From a virus, in IMG/VR virus record IMGVR_UViG_3300047667_001048, positions 1 to 22,406 of that record: 22,406 bases of DNA. One strand, given 5' to 3'. The notes under the pieces were generated by a model. The model saw only the letters and a program-made list of their open reading frames with translations, did no database searches and was not told the DNA's origin. The position numbers and the translations under genes were made by a program. Shown in pieces: positions 1-22,132 of this stretch; the first letter of the stretch is position 1; the number at the start of each line of letters is the position of its first letter.

Positions 1-1258
1 TAATCGCTCCACCCGTTGAATGTATTACAAATACTGCATTCGGGTTGCTTTGTCCGTCAAGATTAAGAATCCCAGCTACCGAAATAGCTCCAGCTACACT
101 ATAAACCCCAGCGGTTAATGTTTCGCCAGAACCAAAAGCAAGCCCGTGGCTAGGATTGGTAACTGTTAATGAGGTTATGTCCGCATAGATTAGGTTTAAG
201 TCTGCTTTTGCGGTTGCTGTATTAAATACGGTTGTGCTCGCTGCGTAGGGTATGTGATATTGAGCATTAAATTGAGCTGTATAAACTCCTGTGTCCTGTA
301 ATGTGATACTCATGCCGTTAACAATAACATTAGAAGTTGAGCTTATATTAGTAGGTACATTGTTTGATACAAAATCTTTTCTTCCTGCGCCACCGACTAG
401 AAGCCCGTTTATGCTTTGCAACTCTTCTAGCACCTTGTTTTGCGTCTCTTCTGCCGCTCTTAGTATCGTGCTTTGTATTTGCGCCAAAGGGACTAATTGG
501 TGCAATGCACCTGTTTGTGTATCCGAAGTTTCTGGAAAGGTAGAAAAGCCAAGTGCTCCAGCGCTTCCGTCTTCAAAGGATATAGAGTCTATAGCGGCAA
601 AGTCAGACGAAACAGGAATGAAATACAATTCAGCTTCACTTAATGCGGCATAGTAAATGTCCGATTGAAGCGTATTGAATAGCTGCGCCAGCTCCTTGGT
701 TGTTTCCGCTTTGGCATTAACCGTTAAATAAGAAACACTAACGCCGTTTATTTCCTGTGTAAAATCCGTAATATCTTGATAAGGCGGCGGATCTCCTTGT
801 GCTTGAATATCTAAAATATAGCCAATTTTCTTTGCCTCTAGCCTTTCGTTTGTTTCTGCCGTAGAGGTAGAAATAGAACTAGCTGAATTTTTAATATCAT
901 CGGCAATTACTATTTGTTCGTCTTGCTTTGCTATCGAAGCGTCACCGCCCGAGCCACCTCCAGAAGCACGGACAAAGTACTCGTTATTTAACTTATTTAC
1001 GAGTTCGTCTCTAGTTCCTACCCAAAGAGTAGGCGCACCGCTTACGTCTTGCACTTTCAATGTACCGTCAAAAACGATACTAGCAGTAGGTTTTCCTTTT
1101 GCGTCTAAAAACTGTATAACGTCGCTAATCGGTAAGCTCTTTGTAATGCCAACAGCAACGCAATCGACCGAAAAGGTTTCTATTATTTGCTTTCCAACAC
1201 CAAAGGATTCAATTACGATGTTTACTGCTCCTGTTTGAGCTTGAATTATTTTAGCCAT
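1..1258 (-). CDS. Fibre-like phage protein with DUF3494 (ice-binding type) domain, 3' end outside window
   Basis: ATG at 1258, one base after the stop of the preceding gene; the frame stays open to the left edge, so 419 codons are visible and the C-terminus is missing. Residues 1-99 form a compact N-terminal region, followed by a GGGSGG linker (100-105), helical or coiled-coil-like stretches (about 106-140 and 255-290), and a strand-rich part with GMSITLQDTGVYTAQFNA (about 314-332) that recalls the first strands of C1q/TNF-like jelly rolls in phage fibres. Residues 345-419 carry the DUF3494/ice-binding pattern: AKADLNLIYADI, then LTAGVYSVAGAISVAG, then LNLDGQSNPNAVFVIH. The usual N-terminal half of DUF3494 is not evident. 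Its place at the end of the tail genes and its modular build suggest a tail fibre or receptor-binding protein. I see the domain pattern directly; ice binding itself is not shown. Confidence 0.75.
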   Translation of the reverse strand, partial: MAKIIQAQTGAVNIVIESFGVGKQIIETFSVDCVAVGITKSLPISDVIQFLDAKGKPTASIVFDGTLKVQDVSGAPTLWVGTRDELVNKLNNEYFVRASGGGSGGDASIAKQDEQIVIADDIKNSASSISTSTAETNERLEAKKIGYILDIQAQGDPPPYQDITDFTQEINGVSVSYLTVNAKAETTKELAQLFNTLQSDIYYAALSEAELYFIPVSSDFAAIDSISFEDGSAGALGFSTFPETSDTQTGALHQLVPLAQIQSTILRAAEETQNKVLEELQSINGLLVGGAGRKDFVSNNVPTNISSTSNVIVNGMSITLQDTGVYTAQFNAQYHIPYAASTTVFNTATAKADLNLIYADITSLTVTNPSHGLAFGSGETLTAGVYSVAGAISVAGILNLDGQSNPNAVFVIHSTGGAI

Positions 1259-1259
1259 T

Positions 1260-1640
1260 TTATATTTTTTTAATTATTTGGTAATCTCTTGTATTTAAAG
1301 CCTTTATTATCTGTAAACTATTTTCTTGCTCAATATCATTAATCCCATACTTTACAATTAAGTCTATAAGGTCGGATTTGGCGACGCTTACGTTTTCGTT
1401 GATTAAGTAAGCTTGTCTTGCTTCATTTTCATTATTTATAATTACATCATAAATAGATTGAGGTATAACGCCCGTATTTAAAGAAGTGGTCAGTTTTTTA
1501 GACCAAAAAGAATAGTTTTTCTTAGGTTCGATTACAATGTATTCTTCAATTTGAGTCTCTTCTTTGTTTGCAGACAAGTAAGAGTATCCTAAAACCAAAG
1601 AAAGCTTATGTATTTCCTGTTTTTTTATCTTAAAACTCAT
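1260..1640 (-). CDS. Hypothetical phage protein, 126 aa
   Basis: Starts at an ATG at 1640 that overlaps the stop of the 520-aa gene as TAATG, and ends one base before the start of the fibre-like gene, so it is translationally packed between two structural genes. The protein is charged and mixed alpha/beta, with FWSKKL near residues 45-50 and an isoleucine-rich C-terminal helix region ending in IIKKI. There is no signal peptide, membrane segment or cysteine. I do not recognise a family. From its position it could be a tail-tip accessory protein or a fibre chaperone; that is inference from context only. Confidence 0.75.
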   Translation of the reverse strand: MSFKIKKQEIHKLSLVLGYSYLSANKEETQIEEYIVIEPKKNYSFWSKKLTTSLNTGVIPQSIYDVIINNENEARQAYLINENVSVAKSDLIDLIVKYGINDIEQENSLQIIKALNTRDYQIIKKI

Positions 1641-3202
1641 TAATATAGGGGTTTTACTTGTACTTGAAATTCTGTGAAAATCTCGTATCCTGTCGTGGTT
1701 GGCACTCTTAGTTTTACAGTGTGAATTGCCGTATCTGGAAGAGTAGCACTAAAGGAGCCTAATAATTGAATCGTAGAAGGCTGTATACTTGGATTCGTAA
1801 GAACTACGCCATCTAGCAATGTTTCGGCATCGCCTAACGCTCCAATATTACCCAATTCTGGATAGCCGCCTAAGGTTGTGACTCGGTCGTACTTGTAGGA
1901 GACTCCTACCGACATAGGGTTAAATCCATTTGTTAAATTTAGTACGTTTAAATATTGCAGCACTTCATTTGCAGGGTCGGGCGCAAATGTGAAATTATCA
2001 GTATCAAAACTGCCTCTGTAATTAGAGCCTATATAGCCAGCAGGAGTAGTAAAGACGCCACTATACCCGACCTCTGTCAATGACGTATTCCTAATTATAT
2101 AAGTATTCGAATAAGAATTAAAAGACTCTAAAACAACAGTTGATACAGTTGAAGAGGCACCAGAAGGAAGAATTATTTTTGTGTCAGAAATTGTGCTTAA
2201 TGTATTTTTTTGATTATCCTTGCCTATTGTTGTGATTCCATACTCCTTGGTGATTGGGTCCAAAACGCCTGCCGAATGAAACGCACCCCAAGCTGTATAA
2301 ACCAAGGCTAAGGTTGTTTTCTGAAACTCGCTGCCATCAATAGATAATTCAAAACGTAACGAAACGGCACGATCTTCTGTTTCGTCGCTATAGTATCCAT
2401 TGTCACGAGCAAAAGCCCCTTTGTTGAATCTAATATTATTTGTGTGCCCTATCGAATCTAAGACATTAAAATAGTCCCAAATATTTTGCGTTGACTGCCA
2501 GTTGTTCGAATCACTAAAGAGGTCTCCAAAATTACCACGAAATACACCTACTAAAGATTCTATTATATTACTTGGTGTTGATAGTTGAGATTCTGCATAA
2601 ACCCGAATAACGACATCGCCACTAGCGGCAGGGGTTATTCCATCGGCTTCATAGTAAAGCTGCCAAGTTTCAAAAAATAAATCTGAAAGTATAGCAGTTT
2701 GGAATCGTGCCTCTCCGTCAATATCCTTAGATCCGTTATTGTCATTATCGAAATAAGCTTCTTTTGAGGCTTGATTTATAAAGACCGAATCGTTATTTCT
2801 AGTAATTGGTTCGTTCTCGAATGTAATATCAACCTTTTGAACGGGTGCAAATTCTCCCCCCTGGTCCTCTATGTCGATATTTGTAATCGAAAATACCTCT
2901 CCAGTATCTATGTATTTTATTTCTTTTACATCGTGCTTGTCGATGGTTTTTAAAAAAGCTAATAGAGGCGAAATAGCTAATGTGTTTACAATGAATCGTT
3001 GAATAGATACGTTTTGAGTCCGTTTACTTTGCCCGTTAGAATCTATTGATGTTTCGATTATGTCCGAGAAGGTGCTTCTTTTTAAGTCTCCACAGAGGTA
3101 GAATACATTTTTGTAGTCAGCACCCCAAAAGACGTTTAAAGAAAGGTCTTCGCAACCTCCGTTTGATTTACTGTAATTGTATGCTGTTATCTTTGCTCTC
3201 AT
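1640..3202 (-). CDS. Phage structural protein, probable tail/baseplate, 520 aa
   Basis: ATG at 3202, just downstream of an intrinsic terminator. The first 140 residues look like a compact beta-rich domain of the kind found in distal tail proteins of Bacteroidota phages: MRAKITAYNYSKSNGGCEDL, then ISPLLAFLKTIDKH around 77-90, then a VQKVDITFENEP strand near 121-132. Residues 152-163 (DNDNNGSKDIDG) fit the D-x-D-x-N-G-x-x-D spacing of an EF-hand-like calcium loop. The remainder is Ser/Thr/Asn-rich and strand-rich, typical of virion surface proteins, and the end (FTEFQVQVKPLY) is beta-strand-like. It precedes a small gene and the fibre-like gene, which supports a tail-tip or adsorption-apparatus role. 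I cannot name a specific family. Confidence 0.65.
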   Translation of the reverse strand: MRAKITAYNYSKSNGGCEDLSLNVFWGADYKNVFYLCGDLKRSTFSDIIETSIDSNGQSKRTQNVSIQRFIVNTLAISPLLAFLKTIDKHDVKEIKYIDTGEVFSITNIDIEDQGGEFAPVQKVDITFENEPITRNNDSVFINQASKEAYFDNDNNGSKDIDGEARFQTAILSDLFFETWQLYYEADGITPAASGDVVIRVYAESQLSTPSNIIESLVGVFRGNFGDLFSDSNNWQSTQNIWDYFNVLDSIGHTNNIRFNKGAFARDNGYYSDETEDRAVSLRFELSIDGSEFQKTTLALVYTAWGAFHSAGVLDPITKEYGITTIGKDNQKNTLSTISDTKIILPSGASSTVSTVVLESFNSYSNTYIIRNTSLTEVGYSGVFTTPAGYIGSNYRGSFDTDNFTFAPDPANEVLQYLNVLNLTNGFNPMSVGVSYKYDRVTTLGGYPELGNIGALGDAETLLDGVVLTNPSIQPSTIQLLGSFSATLPDTAIHTVKLRVPTTTGYEIFTEFQVQVKPLY

Positions 3203-7933: not shown

Positions 7934-10462
7934 TTAATTAGTTTTTATAACTTCTGTATTATCGCCTCTAAGTATCAAGCTAGACCCGTTCCCTTTATCT
8001 ATAACAATAGGGGCTTCTTTAGTTGCCTTTAATTGTTGTCTTAGTATACTGTTCTGCTCTTTAAATGCTTCTTGAATGCCTAAACTTATTGCTTTTTGTT
8101 CTTGCTTTTGCTTTTGTACGGCACCTTTATTTATTGACGTTGATACACGCCTATTTGTATCGCTTATATTTTCAGCTGTTGGGATTGCGCTATAATGATT
8201 CGCCAAAACGCCTTCTACTTTTTCTATCGGTACGTTTCTTAGTCCTAATTTTTGGGTTAACCCTTTGTCGAAAACATATTCGTCTTTATGAACACTTCCT
8301 GCGACTTCGTATTTCCCCCCTGATCCTGTGTATCCACCATCCGCAAATCCTGCCGCACTTGCTGCGGTTGACTTGGAGGCTACAAATGAACCAATCATTA
8401 CACCACTTAAAGCGGTTGCCAAGGCTACACCAATTCCGAAAGGAAGCCCAGATAAAGAAGCGTATAGCCCCGAAACGGCAGTAATTAAGTTGCCAGTCTG
8501 CAAAGCTGTATCAAGTACAAATTGAGCCTTGGCAGCTTCTTCACGCTCTCTTTGTGCTTCGTCACGGGCGGATTTTTCTTTCTTTAGATTCTCCCTTGCG
8601 CCCTCCAAGTCTGCCGCCCGACCCTGCTTACTAAGTTCTAATTGTAATTCAAAATCCTTTTGTGCTTCATTTACGGACTCGTTTTTTTTCTGAATCTCTA
8701 CATCTAGTAATCGGACACGTTCGCCAACTGCATCTGATATACTTTGCGTTACTTGTTGCAAAGCACCTTGAACGGCTTCTACTTGCCCTTGTTGGTCTCC
8801 TGACAAGCCAAGCAATCCGAATAGTCCCGTTCCTTTTTCTGCATCCGTAACAGCTTCGCCCCTTACTTCTGTACCAACACCTTTGAGCCTAGTTTTAAGT
8901 AGCTCAATTTGGGCGTTTAAGGCATTCGTTTCTTCTTCCGTCAAGGCTTTATTATATTCCTTATGTAGATTTAAACGTGCAATTTGAAATTTTAATTCCT
9001 GCTTAAGCTTTAGATTGTTTTGCTCTTCATTAAAAGCGGTTAATTCTTCTTCTGTTAATTTCGTTGCTTCTAAGCCTTGCTTTTCTATAAGTAATTCATT
9101 CTCTAAAAGTAGTTTTTCTTCCTTTGCTTGTGCTTCAAAAGAAGCCGAGCGCAAATCGAATAATTCTGCATCTTCTTTTATCTGCTCTTCTTTTCTTGTG
9201 TCTGCAAATTTATTTCTAATTGTCGAAATGCCACTCTGTAACTTCTCTTCATTTAGTAGTGTAAAAACCGCTTTTTCTTGGTTAGAAACCTTTAAGGCTT
9301 CAATTTGCCTTGCTACGTCTGCCGCTGCTTTTTCTGCACCAGAAATCGCCCTTTGCTCTTCGTCTCGTATTAGTTGCAATTCTAGTGCTTCACGGGCTTT
9401 AATTTCGGCATCAGCGAATTGCTTGCGAACTTTAGCTTTATCTTCTTCTAAAATTTTTTGTGAGTCTATTACGAATTTATTAAACAAAGACGTATTGGTA
9501 ATTGCTTTTTTGCCTTGCGCTTCTCGCTTTATTGCAATCTTATCTAAGGCTAATAAACGCTTAGTTAATTCGTCACGAATTAGGCTATCGAAAAGGTTTT
9601 GCGCTTGTATGGCTCTCTTTTTTCGGTCGTCACTCGCTTTTTTAGCGGCTTTTTCGCTTGAAATTTGAGTGCGAACAATGCTGGCTTCGTTAGACGAAAT
9701 AAGATTAGAGATCGAAAGTCTTTTTGCTCTTATTTCTATAACTCTTTTTTCCGCCTCCAACTCCTTTGTTCTGTCGGCAAAAACCCGATTAGATAACTTA
9801 GTTTCAAGATCCGAAAGTTCGTTCAAAAAACCAGCACGTTCAACCTCTAGCCTGCCTATGCTTTCTTTAAAAACAACAATCTTCTTAAGTCGAGCTTCTT
9901 CTTCGCTTAATCCTTGCAAAACCTGTAAGTCGATAGAAAGTAGCTTTCCTTCTTGAAATCCAGCCTCTAAGCTTTTTGATAAGCTGCCAATACTTGCCTC
10001 TAGTTCTTTGTTTTTCTTAATAATTTCATCATTATTAAGTCCTAGCTTTTCCGCAAAGAAAGAATAAGCGATTGTTGCCACTCCTGCGACTAGCGCAAAA
10101 GCTCCAAAAGGCGTGCCCGACAAAGCAGAACCCAAACCCCCTAAGCCCCTAGCAGCTTGACCGCCTACGCCTGTAAATCTAGAAATCATCGAAACGCTTC
10201 TGCCTCCTGCTTTTGTAAACTTAGAGAATCCAGAGGAATTTTTCTTAAGCTGCTTTTCTTGCTTACCTAACGATTTAGTACTTTCGTTTACTCCATTATT
10301 GAGCTTGCCAACACTACGAGGCTTAAAGGTGCTGTCTAGGGTTTTAGATAAGTCCTTAGCGGTGCTATCTAAAGCCATTGCTTCTGAGTTCACATCTTCA
10401 AAAGATTGAATAATTCCGCTATCATCTGCCGTTATTGGTATTATAATTTCTTCAATTGCCAT
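7934..10462 (-). CDS. Tail tape measure protein, 842 aa
   Basis: ATG at 10462, overlapping the 3' end of the frameshifted chaperone frame by 11 bases, the classical position of the tape measure gene. The protein sets tail length and fills the tail tube before DNA ejection. A glycine-rich region with a hydrophobic stretch (about 115-137, PFGAFALVAGVATIAYSFFA) precedes a very long Lys/Glu/Ala-rich helical region (about 140-650). A second hydrophobic region follows (about 655-700, LPFGIGVALATALSGVMIG), then GFADGGYTGSGGKYEVAG from residue 705, a motif common near the C-terminus of tape measure proteins. With the rule of thumb of about 0.15 nm per residue, 842 residues would match a tail of roughly 125 nm, consistent with a siphovirus. 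The call is secure. Confidence 0.93.
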   Translation of the reverse strand: MAIEEIIIPITADDSGIIQSFEDVNSEAMALDSTAKDLSKTLDSTFKPRSVGKLNNGVNESTKSLGKQEKQLKKNSSGFSKFTKAGGRSVSMISRFTGVGGQAARGLGGLGSALSGTPFGAFALVAGVATIAYSFFAEKLGLNNDEIIKKNKELEASIGSLSKSLEAGFQEGKLLSIDLQVLQGLSEEEARLKKIVVFKESIGRLEVERAGFLNELSDLETKLSNRVFADRTKELEAEKRVIEIRAKRLSISNLISSNEASIVRTQISSEKAAKKASDDRKKRAIQAQNLFDSLIRDELTKRLLALDKIAIKREAQGKKAITNTSLFNKFVIDSQKILEEDKAKVRKQFADAEIKAREALELQLIRDEEQRAISGAEKAAADVARQIEALKVSNQEKAVFTLLNEEKLQSGISTIRNKFADTRKEEQIKEDAELFDLRSASFEAQAKEEKLLLENELLIEKQGLEATKLTEEELTAFNEEQNNLKLKQELKFQIARLNLHKEYNKALTEEETNALNAQIELLKTRLKGVGTEVRGEAVTDAEKGTGLFGLLGLSGDQQGQVEAVQGALQQVTQSISDAVGERVRLLDVEIQKKNESVNEAQKDFELQLELSKQGRAADLEGARENLKKEKSARDEAQREREEAAKAQFVLDTALQTGNLITAVSGLYASLSGLPFGIGVALATALSGVMIGSFVASKSTAASAAGFADGGYTGSGGKYEVAGSVHKDEYVFDKGLTQKLGLRNVPIEKVEGVLANHYSAIPTAENISDTNRRVSTSINKGAVQKQKQEQKAISLGIQEAFKEQNSILRQQLKATKEAPIVIDKGNGSSLILRGDNTEVIKTN

Positions 10463-10751
10463 TCTTTGCGGTTATTCGTTTATGAATCTTTTGTAGGATC
10501 TTATAAAACTCTACAATGTATATTTCCTTTAGATAACCAGGGGAGTAATTGCTATTATTTACAATTAAATCAAAGCTATCAAAGGCAGCATCTTCTATTT
10601 TGTATATTCTGTCAACAGTTTTTAACTTTCCATTTACTATCTTAGCACTACTGTAGCGCCCTAAACTCTCGTCTTCGCTTGGTCTTATAAATCCGTGTAA
10701 TCGGTTTTCATAATCTCTTGACAAGCTATCGAAGAATGTAGAGCAAGCGAA
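10452..10751 (-). CDS. Tail assembly chaperone, -1 frame extension (gpGT-like)
   Basis: This frame has no ATG: a TGA at 10760-10758 closes it just upstream of a T8 run, and its first possible initiator is a TTG at 10724, inside the preceding gene. It is in the -1 frame relative to the 198-aa gene and ends inside the start of the tape measure gene. That layout (chaperone frame, slippery run, overlapping -1 frame, tape measure) matches the lambda G/GT tail assembly chaperones. A shift at the T-run would add 99 residues to the first 177 of the upstream product, giving about 276 aa. The extension is mixed charged, with GYLKEIYIVEFYKILQKIHK near the C-terminus. The long form would bind the tape measure and recruit tube subunits. 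Independent TTG initiation is the alternative. Confidence 0.8.
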   Translation of the reverse strand, partial: FACSTFFDSLSRDYENRLHGFIRPSEDESLGRYSSAKIVNGKLKTVDRIYKIEDAAFDSFDLIVNNSNYSPGYLKEIYIVEFYKILQKIHKRITAKNGN

Positions 10752-11281
10752 AAAAAATCAAACGGGTTTAAATTTTCCTTAATCCAGTCGTCTATTTTTT
10801 CATGCGCCAATTTAGGAGACCACGCCTTTAAGTCTTCGCCCTCTTTAATGATGAATAGAGTACAAAGATAGTAAGCTTTAGGTAGTCGCCTAAGGTTGCA
10901 AAAATTAGAGTCTTCGGTATTCCCCTTGATTGCATCAACAAAATTAATACAATCCCTTAGGTTTTCGTCTTGCATTTTCGCCCAATCGCCGCCCGTATTC
11001 CCCATTAATCTAACTTGATTAGAATAAAGCTTACCTACTTGCGTTGCTATTTGCTGGGGCGTTTGATTTAATGCTAAAGCCGTTTCTATTTGCTGGTACG
11101 CTATCTGTCTATTGAAGTTAAAAACATCGCTTGGGGCAAAAACTTGATAATCTGTACCGTTCGCCTTGAAACGTGTTTGAAACTCTCCGTCTTTAATTAA
11201 ACTTTTAGGTATACCTATAACCTTTATGTCTTCTATTATTTTGTCGAAATTCTCTTCTAGTTCGTCTTTTTTCTCTAACAT
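10685..11281 (-). CDS. Tail assembly chaperone, short form (gpG-like), 198 aa
   Basis: ATG at 11281; TAA at 10687-10685. It lies just upstream of the tape measure gene and overlaps a -1 frame at a run of eight T, the hallmark of phage tail assembly chaperones. The protein is cytoplasmic and mostly helical: a charged N-terminus (MLEKKDELEENFDKIIEDIK), a Gln-rich region around 61-85 (IAYQQIETALALNQTPQQIA), and a C-terminus with WIKENLNPFDFFSLAL, where FF is encoded by the slippery run. The short product would be the abundant chaperone and the shifted product the minor one. Function is assigned from gene order and frameshift architecture; I do not claim a family match from sequence alone. Confidence 0.8.
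   Translation of the reverse strand: MLEKKDELEENFDKIIEDIKVIGIPKSLIKDGEFQTRFKANGTDYQVFAPSDVFNFNRQIAYQQIETALALNQTPQQIATQVGKLYSNQVRLMGNTGGDWAKMQDENLRDCINFVDAIKGNTEDSNFCNLRRLPKAYYLCTLFIIKEGEDLKAWSPKLAHEKIDDWIKENLNPFDFFSLALHSSIACQEIMKTDYTDL
10750..10757 (-). other. Probable programmed -1 frameshift site (T8 slippery run)
   Basis: On the minus strand the 198-aa frame reads GAT TTT TTT TCG. The heptamer T TTT TTT (10757-10751) lets both tRNAs slip back one base and re-pair with TTT. The -1 frame is closed by TGA immediately upstream (10760-10758) and open for 99 codons downstream, so any shift must occur from here to the TAA at 10687. I did not find an obvious strong pseudoknot by eye. Confidence 0.8.
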
Positions 11282-14965: not shown

Positions 14966-15436
14966 TTATTGATTTATTGTGAACTTCAAAGAAATGCTAA
15001 TAGGCGCAGTAAAGTATTGATTTGTTGCAATTAATACGCCATGCCTTGAGGAAATGTATAGAAATACTCCCTTTTTTGGCTCTAAATGAAACCCGACCTC
15101 AAAGAATGCTATGTGTTTTCGAGCTTCTATTTCGTTGTAATCTACAGAATACCCAACGCCAGCCATTAAGAAGTGATTACCACCTCTTACGCCAAACTCT
15201 AAGCGATTGCCAGCCTTAGCGTAAAGGTCAAAATTCCGATTCCCAACCGTCAATTCAAACAAAGGCGAATAGGTGCTTTTAGCGCCCTTGAATTCGTTTA
15301 GTTCGTTATTGCACAAGGAGGGCGAATAAGACACACCAATAGTAACAAAAAGCCTGTCTTTGTATTCAAGCTCGCTTTGTTGACCAAAAACAAAAAGCGT
15401 ATTGATAAGTAAGAGTAAAGTTATTATATTTTTCAT
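14966..15436 (-). CDS. Secreted beta-rich, outer-membrane-barrel-like protein in the head operon, 156 aa
   Basis: ATG at 15436, two bases after the minor head gene. The N-terminus MKNIITLLLLINTLFVFGQQ is a clear Sec signal peptide with likely cleavage between G19 and Q20, as in many Bacteroidota exported proteins. The mature part consists mainly of alternating amphipathic strands (LFVTIGVSYSP, SPLFELTVGNRNFDLYAKAG, LEFGVRGGNHFLMAGVGYSV, IAFFEVGFHLEP, GVFLYISSRHG, PISISLKFTI), suggesting a small beta-barrel of about 7-8 strands in the outer membrane. The last residues are INQ rather than a terminal aromatic. It is an export-targeted protein among cytoplasmic assembly genes, so it may alter the host surface (superinfection exclusion), help lysis, or be a moron. 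It could also be a soluble periplasmic beta-protein. Confidence 0.8.
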   Translation of the reverse strand: MKNIITLLLLINTLFVFGQQSELEYKDRLFVTIGVSYSPSLCNNELNEFKGAKSTYSPLFELTVGNRNFDLYAKAGNRLEFGVRGGNHFLMAGVGYSVDYNEIEARKHIAFFEVGFHLEPKKGVFLYISSRHGVLIATNQYFTAPISISLKFTINQ

Positions 15437-15438
15437 GT

Positions 15439-16296
15439 TTATTTTTTATCGTATGTTGATTTTTCAATGTCTGGATTTACTCTTTTTGCTAATTGGTAGC
15501 TTATCCAGTCGTAATCGTGTCTACAGTTATAGCCCCCTGCGTCTATTAAAACGTTCCCGTCTTGGATTTTACCTTTCCAGTCAAGTTCATTCCATCCTTC
15601 GATAGTTTCTCTGTTGTAAACGTTGCCGTTTCGTTCGTTGCAAAAATCACGAGTGGTTTCGATTTCACCTCCTGCGTAAATGGCATAGTTTAATTTCAAT
15701 GCCTTACTAAATCCTTCATCTAAGGTTCTGGAGTAAGATTGAAGCTTGTCGTATCCATTGTTGTAGTGGTAGGACTCTACTAAGCCGAATTTATCTTCAC
15801 GCCCTTGTATTTGTGTTTCAAGTAAGGTTTTTAATTCGCTTACTTTTTGAGTGCTCGCAATAGCTCCACGAATAGAGTTTTGAATTGATCGTAAGATTTG
15901 ATTATTATCGAATAGGCTATCAAGTACACCATCTGTCAATAATTGCCCCTTACTATTGACTTGACCAATAAGACTTTTACTTGGGTTGAATTCGTTGTAG
16001 TAGCCATTAGTTCGTGACTGAATGCCGCTAAATTGATTGTCGTAATAATCGAACATTGCAACATCAATAACGCCCTTTAGGAACTTTTTAAGATTCTTTG
16101 AGGAATTGACTAGCTTTATATTCTTACTAGAATTAACAATAGAGCTGTTTTTTACGTCCAAAGAAGGCAACAACTTGCCTATTACGTAAGACTCTAACTT
16201 GTCCTGCATAATGGCAGATTTAGCCATGAGCCCCGTTTCGGACTCTCTAATAAAGGCGCTACGTTTGCGAGCTATTTTATTTAGTTTACTCAGCAT
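15439..16296 (-). CDS. Minor head protein, Mu gpF / SPP1 gp7-like, 285 aa
   Basis: ATG at 16296, overlapping the portal gene by 11 bases. The N-terminal two thirds are helical. Residues about 205-262 hold the MuF-type core: NYAIYAGGEIETTRDFCNER, then NRETIEGWNELDW, then AGGYNCRHDYDW, the GYNCRH motif being typical. These proteins bind the portal, enter the procapsid and act in head assembly or early DNA ejection. A short internal repeat NSSKN occurs at about 55-59 and 64-68. No fused C-terminal effector domain is present, so this is the bare head-protein form. Gene order portal then MuF is standard. Confidence 0.88.
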   Translation of the reverse strand: MLSKLNKIARKRSAFIRESETGLMAKSAIMQDKLESYVIGKLLPSLDVKNSSIVNSSKNIKLVNSSKNLKKFLKGVIDVAMFDYYDNQFSGIQSRTNGYYNEFNPSKSLIGQVNSKGQLLTDGVLDSLFDNNQILRSIQNSIRGAIASTQKVSELKTLLETQIQGREDKFGLVESYHYNNGYDKLQSYSRTLDEGFSKALKLNYAIYAGGEIETTRDFCNERNGNVYNRETIEGWNELDWKGKIQDGNVLIDAGGYNCRHDYDWISYQLAKRVNPDIEKSTYDKK

Positions 16297-18091
16297 CTAT
16301 ATCTAGCATTTCCATGTTACGGACGCTATTCGCCTGAACGGCTGCGTCTGAATATTTTTTCGCATACCCTTCTACGACCGCTTTTTTCTTGTCGTGCGTT
16401 AATGTTGTGAATGATTCGTTTTTAGCGATAATAGTATCAGTGATTTCCTTAAAATTAAGAAATAAAGCTTTTTGAATGTTAGAATCTGGAAGACTTAATA
16501 AATATGTATCTCTCAATTCAGCGCTTACGGCTCCGAACGGTTGAAACTTACGCATATCATTATAAATTGACATTGCATTACTTTCTGTTCTATTTTGCTT
16601 AATAAAGATACGTTCGTTTAGTTTCTCAATAACCTCTGGACTAGCTCCGTTTTCCTTGGCAAGTCCTAATTTTACTAAAAGCTCTTTTTCGCTTTCTAAA
16701 TCATATTCATTAGGATAAACTAATTCGCCTTTTAAGTCGGCATATTTTAAGTTTGCCGCCATATTCTCGACTATAAACTTAAATACCTTAACAGGGGCTT
16801 TTGTGAACTCTTCTAGTGTGTCCTGTGCCGTGTCATAGGCGTTGTTGTTTTCCGTAGCGGTCGCTGCTGCGTTTTTCGGTATCTGCGAAATATCTACACC
16901 AAATACCGATTCACATATCTTTTGAGGGGCTTCGTCTACTATCTCTCTTTGAATAGTCACTATTTCCGTTGGAACATTTACATAATGAACAAGGTCGGAG
17001 GGCTTAAGAGCTACGCCACTGTCTTCGTCTGGCATTTTCAACAACAATACATCTTGCGTAGATGTAGAAACCTCCATGCCTGTACCGTTGCATTTTGGAC
17101 ACTTTGACTTTGTGGTATTAATTATGCCGCTTTTACAAATCCCACCCTCTGGGGTCCTGTGCTTACAATCTGTATAATACTGAATCTTTTGTAGGAAAAT
17201 ATGCAATTTAAGCAATAAATCAAGGTCGCTTCCTGCATTAACAAGCTGCTTAAACAACTCTAAAGAGGAGTGCCAATAAGAAACGTAAGATCGCCCTTTT
17301 GTTAGGTCGTCTAATTTGTAACCTACTCTCGTAATCGAAACGCCTGGCACTTCGTTTTTATATTCCTTTTCAATAAAAAACTTACTGCCAGCCTTGATGC
17401 CTTCTGACAAAATTCCGTCTTCTTTAAAGCGTTCGTAGTAGCTTGTCTTTTTGTCTAGGTCAATAATGTACTCTACCGCCAACACTAAGCCAGTAGCCGT
17501 AAAATAATAGTAATAATCAACAGTTACAGGTTTGTTCACGCCTTCGGAAACTTCATAAGAAGCCGTATCAACACGTTTCATTATCGCATAATCGACAACC
17601 CCTTTGCTTATCTTAAAATCCTTAACCTCAGCGCTGCCAAACATAACAGGCTCGAAATTGCTCTCATTATCGGATACCTCGTGTCGATTCCATAACATAG
17701 CATTTGGATCTATGCCGTTATAATGCAACATAGATTGTTCAACCCATTCAATTAAAGGCTGTCCGTCGTTGCCGTACTTTTTTGTATATTGAACGAAACC
17801 GTCAACGCTAGAAGGTTTTTTCTCGCTCTCAAAAGAATACTTCAATTTATCTGGTCGATAAACACGACGCATAAAGCCGCTAATCTTTCCAAACACGGCA
17901 GTAGTTCTATTTTGGCTTATCAAAACACGGTTCTGGAACTGCTTTTCGCTCTCTCGTGCCGAGTATTGAGCTAAGAGCAATCTTTGTTCAACCCCTAGTG
18001 CTATTTGTCCGTATTCTGTTTGTAGCTTATTGACACGTGCGTAATCTTGGTGTACGTAGCCGTTTATAACTCTTCTTACTTGGTTGTCCAT
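16286..18091 (-). CDS. Portal protein with zinc-ribbon-like insertion, 601 aa
   Basis: ATG at 18091, 9 bases after the terminase stop. Size, helical C-terminal part and position between the terminase and MuF genes mark it as the portal: the dodecameric ring at one capsid vertex through which DNA enters and leaves. Visible elements are an N-terminal helical region, a strand-rich wing (about 145-260), helices at 275-305, and a Gln/Asn/Glu-rich helical C-terminal region. Residues 309, 319, 331 and 334 are cysteines (DCK ... GICK ... CPKCNGTG), spaced like a four-Cys zinc ribbon with a DnaJ-like CPKCNGTG knuckle, inserted after the long helix near the presumed clip/stem. Portal identity is strong by context; zinc binding is inferred. 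Confidence 0.87.
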   Translation of the reverse strand: MDNQVRRVINGYVHQDYARVNKLQTEYGQIALGVEQRLLLAQYSARESEKQFQNRVLISQNRTTAVFGKISGFMRRVYRPDKLKYSFESEKKPSSVDGFVQYTKKYGNDGQPLIEWVEQSMLHYNGIDPNAMLWNRHEVSDNESNFEPVMFGSAEVKDFKISKGVVDYAIMKRVDTASYEVSEGVNKPVTVDYYYYFTATGLVLAVEYIIDLDKKTSYYERFKEDGILSEGIKAGSKFFIEKEYKNEVPGVSITRVGYKLDDLTKGRSYVSYWHSSLELFKQLVNAGSDLDLLLKLHIFLQKIQYYTDCKHRTPEGGICKSGIINTTKSKCPKCNGTGMEVSTSTQDVLLLKMPDEDSGVALKPSDLVHYVNVPTEIVTIQREIVDEAPQKICESVFGVDISQIPKNAAATATENNNAYDTAQDTLEEFTKAPVKVFKFIVENMAANLKYADLKGELVYPNEYDLESEKELLVKLGLAKENGASPEVIEKLNERIFIKQNRTESNAMSIYNDMRKFQPFGAVSAELRDTYLLSLPDSNIQKALFLNFKEITDTIIAKNESFTTLTHDKKKAVVEGYAKKYSDAAVQANSVRNMEMLDIDAE

Positions 18092-18099
18092 TTTTTATT

Positions 18100-19575
18100 T
18101 TATTTAAGTATAGCTAAATAACCCAACGATTCAGGGTGGCAAATTTCGTACTGCAATGCGTCCAAATGATGCCCCCGTTCTTCGATGCCATCTTTATTTT
18201 TCTTCTTAAGCAAACGACCCGTTCCGTCGTCTTTACATTCTTCTAGGTCTAGGATTAAGCTTTTGCACTTCTTAGAGATTCGAACCCTAACGGGGAATCG
18301 TTCGCCTTGAAAACAAACATTGACCAAGGTCTTACGCCCTAAGCTGTGATGTTTTACACCATCGTATCTAGGGTTTGATTTTGGTATCCTGTCTTCACAA
18401 AGGTATTCGGCTTGCCCTAAACCCTTTTTAAGGTCGTGAAAATGACTCTTAGTATCCTTAATGCCTGAGCGCTTCATTCCGCTTGCGTCTCCATAAAGAT
18501 AAAAAATATTATTCAACTTGTATCTATCAACAAAGTATTCCCCTAAATAATAGGCTTCATTGTGTGGATACTCTGCATTTATCTCGTCAATTACTCTATA
18601 ATCCCAATAACTAGTATGTCCGTTCCAAAAATCATTTTCAATAAATTCCTTCTGGATAACTAAGCCCGACATTTGAGGAGCAACGTTAAAATCTACCGTT
18701 AGGCTCAATGGTAATTTAGGATCGTATTCTAAGGTTTCGTAAACGTGCTTTGTTGTGTCGAAATGCGGAATAAACCGAGAACCTATTTCTATTTGCCCCC
18801 AACGACCTAACTTGTAAATCCTGTAGTAATTCTGAGACATTGAAGCCATGAAGTCTAATTGACTCTTATATGCCTTGTCTATGAACTTATTATCAGAATA
18901 GGTGGTATTTAGTATCCTTGTGGTTAAAACGTTCCTTTCGCCCGTTTCTTCGTCAATCGTAATCTTATCAAATTCCCAGACCTTATTCTTTAGCAATATT
19001 CGCATATCACTAATATTATTAGGCTGGTCTTCTTTATCCAATAAAAGCGGCTCCACAAACTCAACTAAGAAATGTTTTTCGCTTACTGGATTAAAGCTAA
19101 ACACATATTGCAAAGGGTATTTAGTTATCCCTCTAAGCCTTAAATCAAGCTGTATAAAGTCATTACGCTCTAATTGGGTAACTTCCTCAACGTAAATGCC
19201 TGTTATCCCTTCAATAGACTTAATCTTCTCTTCATCGTCAATGCCTTTCATTATAATAAGGTTCCCGTTGGCGATACATTCGATACTACAAACGGTCTTA
19301 TTGAACTTGAAGAAGTCTGTTAAGCCTAAATCTCTAATCTCATTCTTAACACGCTTAAAGAGTGAATCCCTAATGGTTGTGCCAAACTTACGAACAAAAA
19401 GAAAGATGTGATTAGCGTCATGTTCTTGCAGCATCCTTGCTATGAACCACTGAGAAGCATAAACGCTTTTTCCGCTTCCTGCACCACCAAAAAAGCCCAG
19501 ATAACGCCCTTTGTAATTCTGGGCGTAGTCTCGGTATATTTCGTTTACTTTTATGTTAATGTGTGCTGTTGGCAT
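18100..19575 (-). CDS. terL: Terminase large subunit (ATPase-nuclease), 491 aa
   Basis: ATG at 19575 immediately after the 105-aa gene. Terminase motor that pumps DNA into the procapsid and cuts concatemers. Walker A is GGAGSGKS (30-37); the Walker B-like strand with catalytic carboxylate is GIYVEE (126-131); a coupling motif SFNP lies at 160-163. The RNase H-like nuclease domain follows, with candidate metal ligands D295 (SLTVDFNVAP), D363 (FYLYGDASG) and D472 (GHHLDALQYE). The pattern is that of the PBSX/Terminase_3 family and its length is normal. It acts with the small subunit upstream and docks on the portal encoded downstream. Confidence 0.95.
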   Translation of the reverse strand: MPTAHINIKVNEIYRDYAQNYKGRYLGFFGGAGSGKSVYASQWFIARMLQEHDANHIFLFVRKFGTTIRDSLFKRVKNEIRDLGLTDFFKFNKTVCSIECIANGNLIIMKGIDDEEKIKSIEGITGIYVEEVTQLERNDFIQLDLRLRGITKYPLQYVFSFNPVSEKHFLVEFVEPLLLDKEDQPNNISDMRILLKNKVWEFDKITIDEETGERNVLTTRILNTTYSDNKFIDKAYKSQLDFMASMSQNYYRIYKLGRWGQIEIGSRFIPHFDTTKHVYETLEYDPKLPLSLTVDFNVAPQMSGLVIQKEFIENDFWNGHTSYWDYRVIDEINAEYPHNEAYYLGEYFVDRYKLNNIFYLYGDASGMKRSGIKDTKSHFHDLKKGLGQAEYLCEDRIPKSNPRYDGVKHHSLGRKTLVNVCFQGERFPVRVRISKKCKSLILDLEECKDDGTGRLLKKKNKDGIEERGHHLDALQYEICHPESLGYLAILK

Positions 19576-20976: not shown

Positions 20977-21390
20977 TTATTTTAACAATGATTTAAAAAA
21001 CTTCGTACTCATGCACTTTCTAAAAGCCCAATCGGATATTCTTAAATGTGACTCTCTATCTGTCTTTGTTATCTCTTCGCCTATACCTTGAAGGATGTAA
21101 TTCTTAAAGTGAGCGCATTCATGACTAAGTGTTACTATTTTATCCGCTGTAGGCTTATCTTTAAACGAATCAACATCGAACACAATACAAATAACACCCC
21201 CTTTTAATGGCGAAGTACAAAACGCATGAGAGTTAATTAAGCCGTCCTTGGTTTTAGATAAGTCCAAATCTATACTTGTTAGCCTTTTTGTGACCTTATC
21301 AAGGTGCTTTTGTTTGCTATACCGATAAACAATCAACTCTAACGTGACATCAAACATTTCATTATAAAAACTATCTACTTTTACTTTCAT
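20977..21390 (-). CDS. Putative zinc metallopeptidase (HExxH), 137 aa
   Basis: ATG at 21390, overlapping the previous stop as TAATG, with an unusually strong Shine-Dalgarno GGAGG just upstream (inside the end of the previous gene). Residues 90-94 are HECAH, the HExxH zinc-binding and catalytic motif, within the helix IVTLSHECAHFKNYI; E113 in TDRESHLRISDWAF is a candidate third ligand. Strands before the motif (GVICIVFDVDSF, 65-76) resemble the sheet of small phage-encoded peptidases of the 'HEC-x-H ... D-x-E' type. The target is unknown; a role in virion maturation, host takeover or lysis is possible. The motif is directly visible, activity is not shown. Confidence 0.75.
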   Translation of the reverse strand: MKVKVDSFYNEMFDVTLELIVYRYSKQKHLDKVTKRLTSIDLDLSKTKDGLINSHAFCTSPLKGGVICIVFDVDSFKDKPTADKIVTLSHECAHFKNYILQGIGEEITKTDRESHLRISDWAFRKCMSTKFFKSLLK

Positions 21391-21824
21391 TACACCTCCA
21401 GTTTATCATCACCTAAGTACGGCTTTAGCGTTTCGGTAAGGGTGCGTATATTGTCTTCAAATGGTTTTGTATAAACATTACTGACAGATGTGTAGTGTAA
21501 TAAATCCTTGTGCGCTTCAATCAAACCCCGAACCGCTGCAATCTGCTTTTGCATTTCAACGTCACGAGCTGCGAGCTTTTCGGCAAAGTATTTCGCAATG
21601 TTTTTCCCTTCAATGTCTGACCAAAACCCAACATTTATACTTCCAACTTTACACCAATTGCCATAATTAAAATCACAAGCCATTTGATATAGTATTTCTT
21701 CTTCTGTCATTTTGTTATTATTTTCGCAACAGTTATTTTTTTGATTAATTACAGATTCGCCATACAAGAAAGCCACCCTATTAACTCCTTCTGCTATTCC
21801 TTTGGCAACGAAATCCTTATCCAT
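21390..21824 (-). CDS. Hypothetical protein, first gene of the late operon, 144 aa
   Basis: ATG at 21824, downstream of the promoter candidate and leader terminator; GGAAAA right before the ATG is at best a weak ribosome site. The N-terminal half has a CC pair (NNCCENNNKMTEEE, about 31-44) and ends with NYGNWCKVGSINVGFWSD; the C-terminal half is one long helical stretch (about 75-110, AKYFAEKLAARDVEMQKQIA) followed by a shorter helix. No signal peptide or membrane segment. The next gene is coupled through TAATG. I recognise no family; its lead position could mean a regulatory or assembly-timing role, but this is unproven. Confidence 0.7.
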   Translation of the reverse strand: MDKDFVAKGIAEGVNRVAFLYGESVINQKNNCCENNNKMTEEEILYQMACDFNYGNWCKVGSINVGFWSDIEGKNIAKYFAEKLAARDVEMQKQIAAVRGLIEAHKDLLHYTSVSNVYTKPFEDNIRTLTETLKPYLGDDKLEV

Positions 21825-21832
21825 TTTTCCGA

Positions 21833-21908
21833 TAATTTAAGTCATTCGAGAATGTCGAACAACTGATTTAAAAACGGGGCGCAACTAATTACGCCCCTAT
21901 ATTTTATG
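21833..21908. repeat. Direct repeat copy A (76 bp), contains the leader terminator
   Basis: Matches copy B at 22047-22132 in the same orientation. A 30-base core is identical (21856-21885 and 22068-22097), and the flanks TAATTTAAG at one end and TAATTACGCCCC...TATTTTATG at the other are shared. Copy A lacks a 12-base loop segment present in B (22098-22109) and has two extra bases near 21850-21855. It also contains CATTCGAGAATG, a short inverted repeat not kept in B. Confidence 0.85.
21867..21897 (-). terminator. Leader terminator between promoter candidate and first late gene (copy A)
   Basis: Minus-strand hairpin with 6-bp stem GGGGCG/CGCCCC (21897-21892 with 21881-21876), optionally extended inward past a mismatch by two A-T pairs, followed by G and then TTTTT. 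It lies about 40 bases after the expected start of transcription and 43 bases before the ATG at 21824, so it would stop most transcripts unless anti-termination occurs. Confidence 0.75.
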
Positions 21909-21970: not shown

Positions 21971-22046
21971 GCTAAAAGTTTAGTGTTTTAAAAAAAATAT
22001 GTATTAGTAGTTTGGTGACCGTTGATACATTTTAATGATATTTTAA

Positions 22047-22132
22047 TAATTTAAGCCACTCGAAAGCCGAACAACTGATTTAAAAACGGGGCGCAACGCA
22101 TTTCGCCGCTAATTACGCCCCGATATTTTATG
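22047..22132. repeat. Direct repeat copy B (86 bp), contains the terminator of the upstream gene
   Basis: Second copy of the repeat at 21833-21908. It starts at the same TAATTTAAG and ends at TATTTTATG, which here includes the last codons and stop of the right-edge gene. Relative to copy A it has 12 extra bases inside the hairpin loop (22098-22109). The two copies bracket 138 bases of AT-rich DNA that hold the promoter candidate and palindrome. Confidence 0.85.
22079..22122 (-). terminator. Terminator of the right-edge gene (copy B)
   Basis: Minus strand: 7-bp stem CGGGGCG/CGCCCCG (22122-22116 with 22093-22087), 22-base loop, then TTTTT. It starts 5 bases after the stop codon at 22130-22128 and should separate the upstream transcription unit from the late operon. 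Confidence 0.8.

Follow-up and report, generated by a model that had tools for sequence, protein, structure and literature searches.

A probable flavobacterial phage fibre protein with an exchangeable, ice-binding-type head: a DUF3494 domain that appears permuted and nested in a jelly roll

Results

The locus and its genes

The 22.4-kb IMG/VR virus fragment analysed here (22,406 nucleotides, all of which we refer to as the window) carries genes for a terminase large subunit, a portal protein and a tape measure protein, and its left edge cuts through a fibre-like gene (Table 1). Its structural genes lie in the same order in a relative, L003, at 30-58% identity. Several of the best full-length INPHARED matches of the terminase were Flavobacterium phages (~29%), in agreement with the link to flavobacterial phages made in a preliminary description of this DNA. 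The 520-aa gene was without a match in Pfam, PHROG and INPHARED, and no prophage copy of it, which could have served as a host link, was found in 299 Flavobacteriaceae genomes, in a search run without a positive control.

Table 1. Positions of the features discussed (window coordinates unless another locus is named)
Feature	Position	Strand	Basis or remark
Fibre-like gene	2..1258	-	419 aa in window, 3'-open at contig edge; PF11999 38.3 bits
DUF3494 helix and start of C-half (residues ~346-416)	11..223	-	PF11999; CHALF profile 88.2 bits
JR1, first C1q/TNF-like jelly-roll strands (residues ~296-337)	248..373	-	JR1 profile 48.8 bits
Exchangeable cassette (from residue ~289, GLLVGGAGRKDF linker)	1..394	-	93.1% DNA identity to L002 (blastn, blastp)
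N-terminal region (residues ~1-288), presumed virion anchor	395..1258	-	Related to L003 10001-10777
126-aa gene directly upstream of fibre-like gene	1260..1640	-	Syntenic in L003, blastp 40%
520-aa gene	1640..3202	-	57% identical to L003 counterpart, order kept
Tape measure protein	7934..10462	-	PHROG tail length tape measure matches
156-aa protein with signal-peptide-like start	14966-15436	-	Inside structural cluster; relatives in contigs of L003 (33%) and L002 (25%)
Portal protein	16286..18091	-	phrog_7376
Terminase large subunit	18100..19575	-	phrog_3717; tblastn against INPHARED
DUF4402/chaperone-like/usher-like/nested-DUF3494/T9SS cluster	L004 1-8978, L005 595-9005, L006 651-9052, L013 4692-11996		

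An ice-binding-type domain in the fibre-like gene

The fibre-like gene contains an ice-binding-type domain. The DUF3494 pattern that had been reported in the left-edge gene is present from residue 345, and the proposed HMM check against PF11999 gave a significant match at residues 308-413 (hmmscan; 38.3 bits, E 1.4e-9), above the curated cut-off of 28.7 bits. PF11999 scored 42.1 bits in the window by six-frame search and had no matches in 14 control genomes. Because the score exceeds the cut-off and the control genomes were empty, we consider the match real. The preliminary description had confined the domain to positions 1-260; the pattern is there, but the signal reaches further upstream, and the corresponding unit is a 394-bp cassette (window 1-394). 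The jelly-roll-like start that it had placed ahead of the domain was borne out by profile, model and Foldseek as the opening strands of a jelly roll of C1q type (JR1), which are seen in the model of a complete relative, P0001, described below, and in Foldseek matches to C1q/TNF-like domains. The window gene exposes JR1 and the beginning of the DUF3494 C-half only, the remainder lying past the contig edge.

NCBIfam NF045625 (IBP_CFB) did not match the window protein, and its score for P0001, 38.9 bits, falls far short of the 400 bits set as the equivalog cut-off. The FfIBP-type motif T[AG]x[TN] was not enriched in any bacterial or nested group. Neither the window and L002 proteins nor four further modules had a tblastn match in INPHARED, where low-complexity filtering may mask weak ones.

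The head as an exchangeable cassette

When the rest of the gene was sought in IMG/VR, the last gene of L002 proved to encode a complete relative (P0001, 441 aa; PF11999 score 93.5 bits), 94% identical over window residues 293-419. The DNA shared with L002 is the cassette of Table 1 and stops sharply at the linker; blastp found no match in L002 to the portal, terminase and capsid genes of the window phage. The N-terminal part of the window gene is found in the last gene of L003 (32% identity over residues 1-260, supported by alignment), the protein of which had no DUF3494 and no Pfam match. L003 was the only relative of this region that the scan returned, no known fibre family matched it, and AlphaFold modelled it, from a two-sequence alignment, with a pLDDT of 31. 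As the N-terminus is common to L003 and the head to L002, the head is an exchangeable cassette on a conserved anchor. The gene is thus modular and fibre-like, as had been proposed, with the conserved N-terminus and exchangeable C-terminal head by which phage fibres and receptor-binding proteins are recognized.

A circularly permuted and nested DUF3494

In P0001 the order is jelly-roll part 1, DUF3494 helix and C-half, DUF3494 N-half, jelly-roll part 2, the N-half-like segment having been located downstream of the C-half by phmmer against 5UYT, an ice-binding protein from an Antarctic Flavobacteriaceae bacterium. This order indicates that DUF3494 is circularly permuted and nested in the B-C strand loop of a C1q/TNF-like jelly roll. 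One order was conserved throughout an alignment of 25 bacterial and viral modules, and the JR1, CHALF, NHALF and JR2 profiles cut from it were run on every ORF of the collected loci. With these custom profiles the order was JR1-CHALF-NHALF-JR2 for 25 ORFs of bacteria and 18 of viruses, and the canonical NHALF-CHALF for 77 bacterial ORFs (65 as tandem pairs, 12 single). The canonical PF11999 order of N-half, helix and C-half was found neither in the complete relative nor in the 43 ORFs.

An independent test used a profile made from segments upstream of canonical C-halves only. It matched 42 of 45 modules (E 4e-19 to 5e-7), after the C-half and with its best match at ~residue 205 of ~330, and none of 900 shuffled controls; hhalign gave a probability of 99.3 (E 1.6e-20). 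In nested records the match to PF11999 itself mostly begins at positions 16-90 of the profile (at 3-8 in one record), compared with 1-2 in most of 50 canonical viral records, and seven of ten isolated N-half segments had weak PF11999 matches, at profile positions 3-54.

The permuted, nested order is established on L002 and the family and, judging from this close relative, probably extends to the window gene. The preliminary description had considered the N-terminal half of the domain absent, which is true within the window; in P0001 that half is present, at residues ~308-358, after the C-half. As explained by the complete relative, the DUF3494 of the window gene would be rearranged rather than half-missing.

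Predicted fold

AlphaFold, run on P0001 with 26 sequences, gave a model in which 286 of 441 residues had pLDDT >= 90; values were mostly above 90 over residues 101-441, and each ten-residue block from residue 101 on reached at least 72. The chain runs through jelly-roll strands, a helix (154-169), the solenoid, the N-half and six further strands. Four main strands lie ahead of the insert and six past the N-half, which makes ten, as in C1q, so that the model has both a beta-solenoid with a flanking helix and a ten-strand jelly roll. Foldseek aligned it with ice-binding proteins at ~2 A over ~150 residues and, more weakly, with the TNF/C1q-like heads of Pgp3, PLTL, BclA and F-BclA (E 0.01-0.05, probability 0.94-1.00). 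The beta-solenoid fold suggested for the window protein was in this way modelled on its complete relative. The order of the segments, the confidence of the model and homology suggest that the N-half completes the same solenoid as the C-half.

Distribution in bacteria and viruses

A tree of 45 modules grouped the window and L002 with F. weaverense, P. irgensii and a Flavobacteriaceae MAG (support 96/87), a clade then joined by F. gillisiae (99/99), and placed other phages in separate groups. The cassette was probably exchanged between flavobacterial phages and, judged from this tree, with secreted proteins of cold-living Flavobacteriaceae, the tree being silent on direction. Of 299 sampled Flavobacteriaceae genomes, three (the centre itself included) had a near-full-length match, so the nested module is rare. 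Among its named carriers, F. weaverense, F. gillisiae, F. xueshanense, F. urumqiense, P. irgensii, P. glomeratus and A. antarctica presumably come from cold habitats.

Bacteroidota surface proteins (F. weaverense L004, P. irgensii L006, F. gillisiae L010) have the module order of the phage protein, at about 31-51% identity. They differ in having signal peptides, apparent by inspection in the bacterial homologs, and in some cases pilus-like neighbours, whereas the phage copy has a phage anchor; inspection revealed no signal peptide at the start of the window or L002 protein. Loci L004-L006 and L013 share a conserved cluster of DUF4402 (pilin-like), chaperone-like, DUF4402, ~870-1000-aa usher-like, nested-module and T9SS-sorted genes, which is possibly an undescribed ice pilus. 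The pilus reading follows from DUF4402, gene order and inspection of the sequences; for the usher- and chaperone-like neighbours of the bacterial homologs, no match was obtained among solved structures or NCBI families.

The module is carried on a collagen stalk in bacterial L010 (PF01391) and on a collagen-like stalk in phage L086 (collagen-like adhesin models), and phages bear it on unrelated N-termini. Portal, head protease, capsid-like or sheath genes are found in L002, L084 and L095, and tail fibres in L086 and L091. Because capsid or portal genes are close to the module gene in L095, L084 and L002, the protein could equally be a head fibre or a tail fibre.

Tandem copies were also seen. 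Two nested-module genes lie side by side within one phage each in L084 (8129-12035) and L089 (9653-11873), and bacterial tandem paralogs number seven in L009 (1-12441) and four in L012 (4284-9579).

Discussion

We propose, with a probability of about two in three, that the product of the window gene is a fibre or decoration protein of the virion, its adhesive head being exchangeable and formed by a permuted DUF3494 nested in a jelly roll. Its N-terminal part would fix it to the particle. The head would be a C1q/TNF-like jelly roll that holds a complete permuted DUF3494 solenoid in its B-C loop, helix and C-half first and N-half second; the permutation would bring both ends of the solenoid together, and thus allow it to sit there as a loop of the jelly roll. 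Relatives of this C1q/TNF-like jelly roll are trimers on collagen-like or coiled-coil stalks. Were the head to trimerise, several solenoids per fibre tip could make the virion adhere to the surface bound by the bacterial protein, and the most likely target would be either ice or ice-living hosts, through their matrix and cell surface.

Because this block is shared by unrelated phages and by surface proteins of cold-living bacteria, the phages may carry a bacterial adhesion module, possibly one for attachment to ice or to hosts living in it. A bolder version, in which flavobacterial phages took over a bacterial ice-adhesin head, permuted and nested, and free virions stick to ice near gathering hosts, we regard as rather doubtful; if it is true, adherence to ice replaces adherence to mucus as a means of phage positioning. 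Taken separately, ice binding by the virion is on the unlikely side, and binding to host or matrix has a somewhat better, still less than even, prospect.

The head might, alternatively, be a receptor-binding one, with the solenoid as a rigid, variable scaffold for host glycans or outer-membrane proteins and ice irrelevant. We place this not far short of an even chance. Receptor-binding proteins typically swap C-terminal modules between unrelated N-termini, some TNF/C1q-like heads (PLTL, for example) are lectins, and the viral carriers include large contigs, with tail-fibre genes adjoining the module. However, many of the bacteria with the rearranged module bear names from cold habitats and, to our knowledge, the sole well-characterised activity of the DUF3494 fold is ice binding. 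It is improbable that the gene is instead an auxiliary one, whose ice-binding product keeps an infected host cell from freezing, as PMC11515562 proposes for PF11999 genes in Central Arctic viral contigs. In that study three such genes of viral OTUs were annotated as possible cryoprotective auxiliary genes, but the phage proteins have no apparent signal peptide on inspection, unlike the bacterial ones, the window gene closes the structural cluster and its N-terminal part is conserved, and the phage homolog L086 has a collagen-like stalk. A DUF3494 cassette misjoined to the window phage in assembly is just as improbable: the cassette takes up the final 394 bases of the contig and a search of IMG/VR found no second contig across the junction, but the reading frame stays open over the junction, which coincides with a domain border, 27 mismatches to the L002 cassette mean that it is no copy, and GC content is even along the gene. 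The preliminary reading as a whole is partly supported.

The proposed fibre protein resembles known systems in parts. DUF3494/PF11999 proteins (FfIBP, ColAFP, 5UYT, SfIBP_1 6BG8) have in common with it a score above the Pfam cut-off and a beta-solenoid with a flanking helix; in the phage module, however, the halves are swapped and nested in a jelly roll. BclA, F-BclA, PLTL and the C-terminal domain of Chlamydia Pgp3 share the ten-strand jelly roll (model, Foldseek), and some members of the nested family share the collagen stalk of such C1q/TNF-like heads, but the family has a ~220-residue solenoid in the B-C loop. T4 Hoc-like capsid decoration sticks phages to mucus. A virion-displayed adhesive domain would similarly concentrate phages near hosts, with another fold and proposed target, and is no homolog of it.

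PF11999 genes of Central Arctic viral OTUs linked to Flavobacteriales were read as host cryoprotectants (PMC11515562), an account in which no fibre context, nesting or permutation was seen. We did not find PF11999 in Synechococcus phage S-SKS1, which has homologs according to that study, or in Flavobacterium phage 11b, in searches where the controls were silent too. A literature search with preprints and most subscription journals outside its range found no work on DUF3494 and phage together, PMC11515562 alone for PF11999 and phage, and, among the matches listed, none on circular permutation in the ice-binding or DUF3494 literature. PF11999 in phages was known before; the permuted, nested architecture is new so far as the searchable literature goes.

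What emerges is a rearranged version of a widespread ice-binding fold, one that cannot be recognised from a standard Pfam hit and that phages and bacterial surface proteins have in common. Ice-binding genes of viral metagenomes may be parts for virion adhesion, not host cryoprotectants, and phage-ice binding becomes directly testable with one recombinant domain.

Several minor observations concern other viral records and the contigs themselves. Fifty IMG/VR contigs (G001-G050) carry PF11999 mostly in canonical order, with as many as six copies on one contig and in ORFs reaching 2730 aa; they count as viral records in IMG/VR, not necessarily all as phages. A single viral DUF3494 protein (Hyperionvirus) is found in BFVD, along with many collagen/C1q proteins of phages and giant viruses. 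Window positions 21386-21448, 21522-21559, 21826-21880 and 22041-22092 are short patches 85-100% identical to the L002 contig (L183 ~10239-10885, near a 124-aa ORF there), and form a second shared accessory region beside the fibre cassette, most other genes being unrelated. Both the window, at position 1, and L002 stop in the fibre gene or within ~180 bp past it, as if assemblies break at the variable region.
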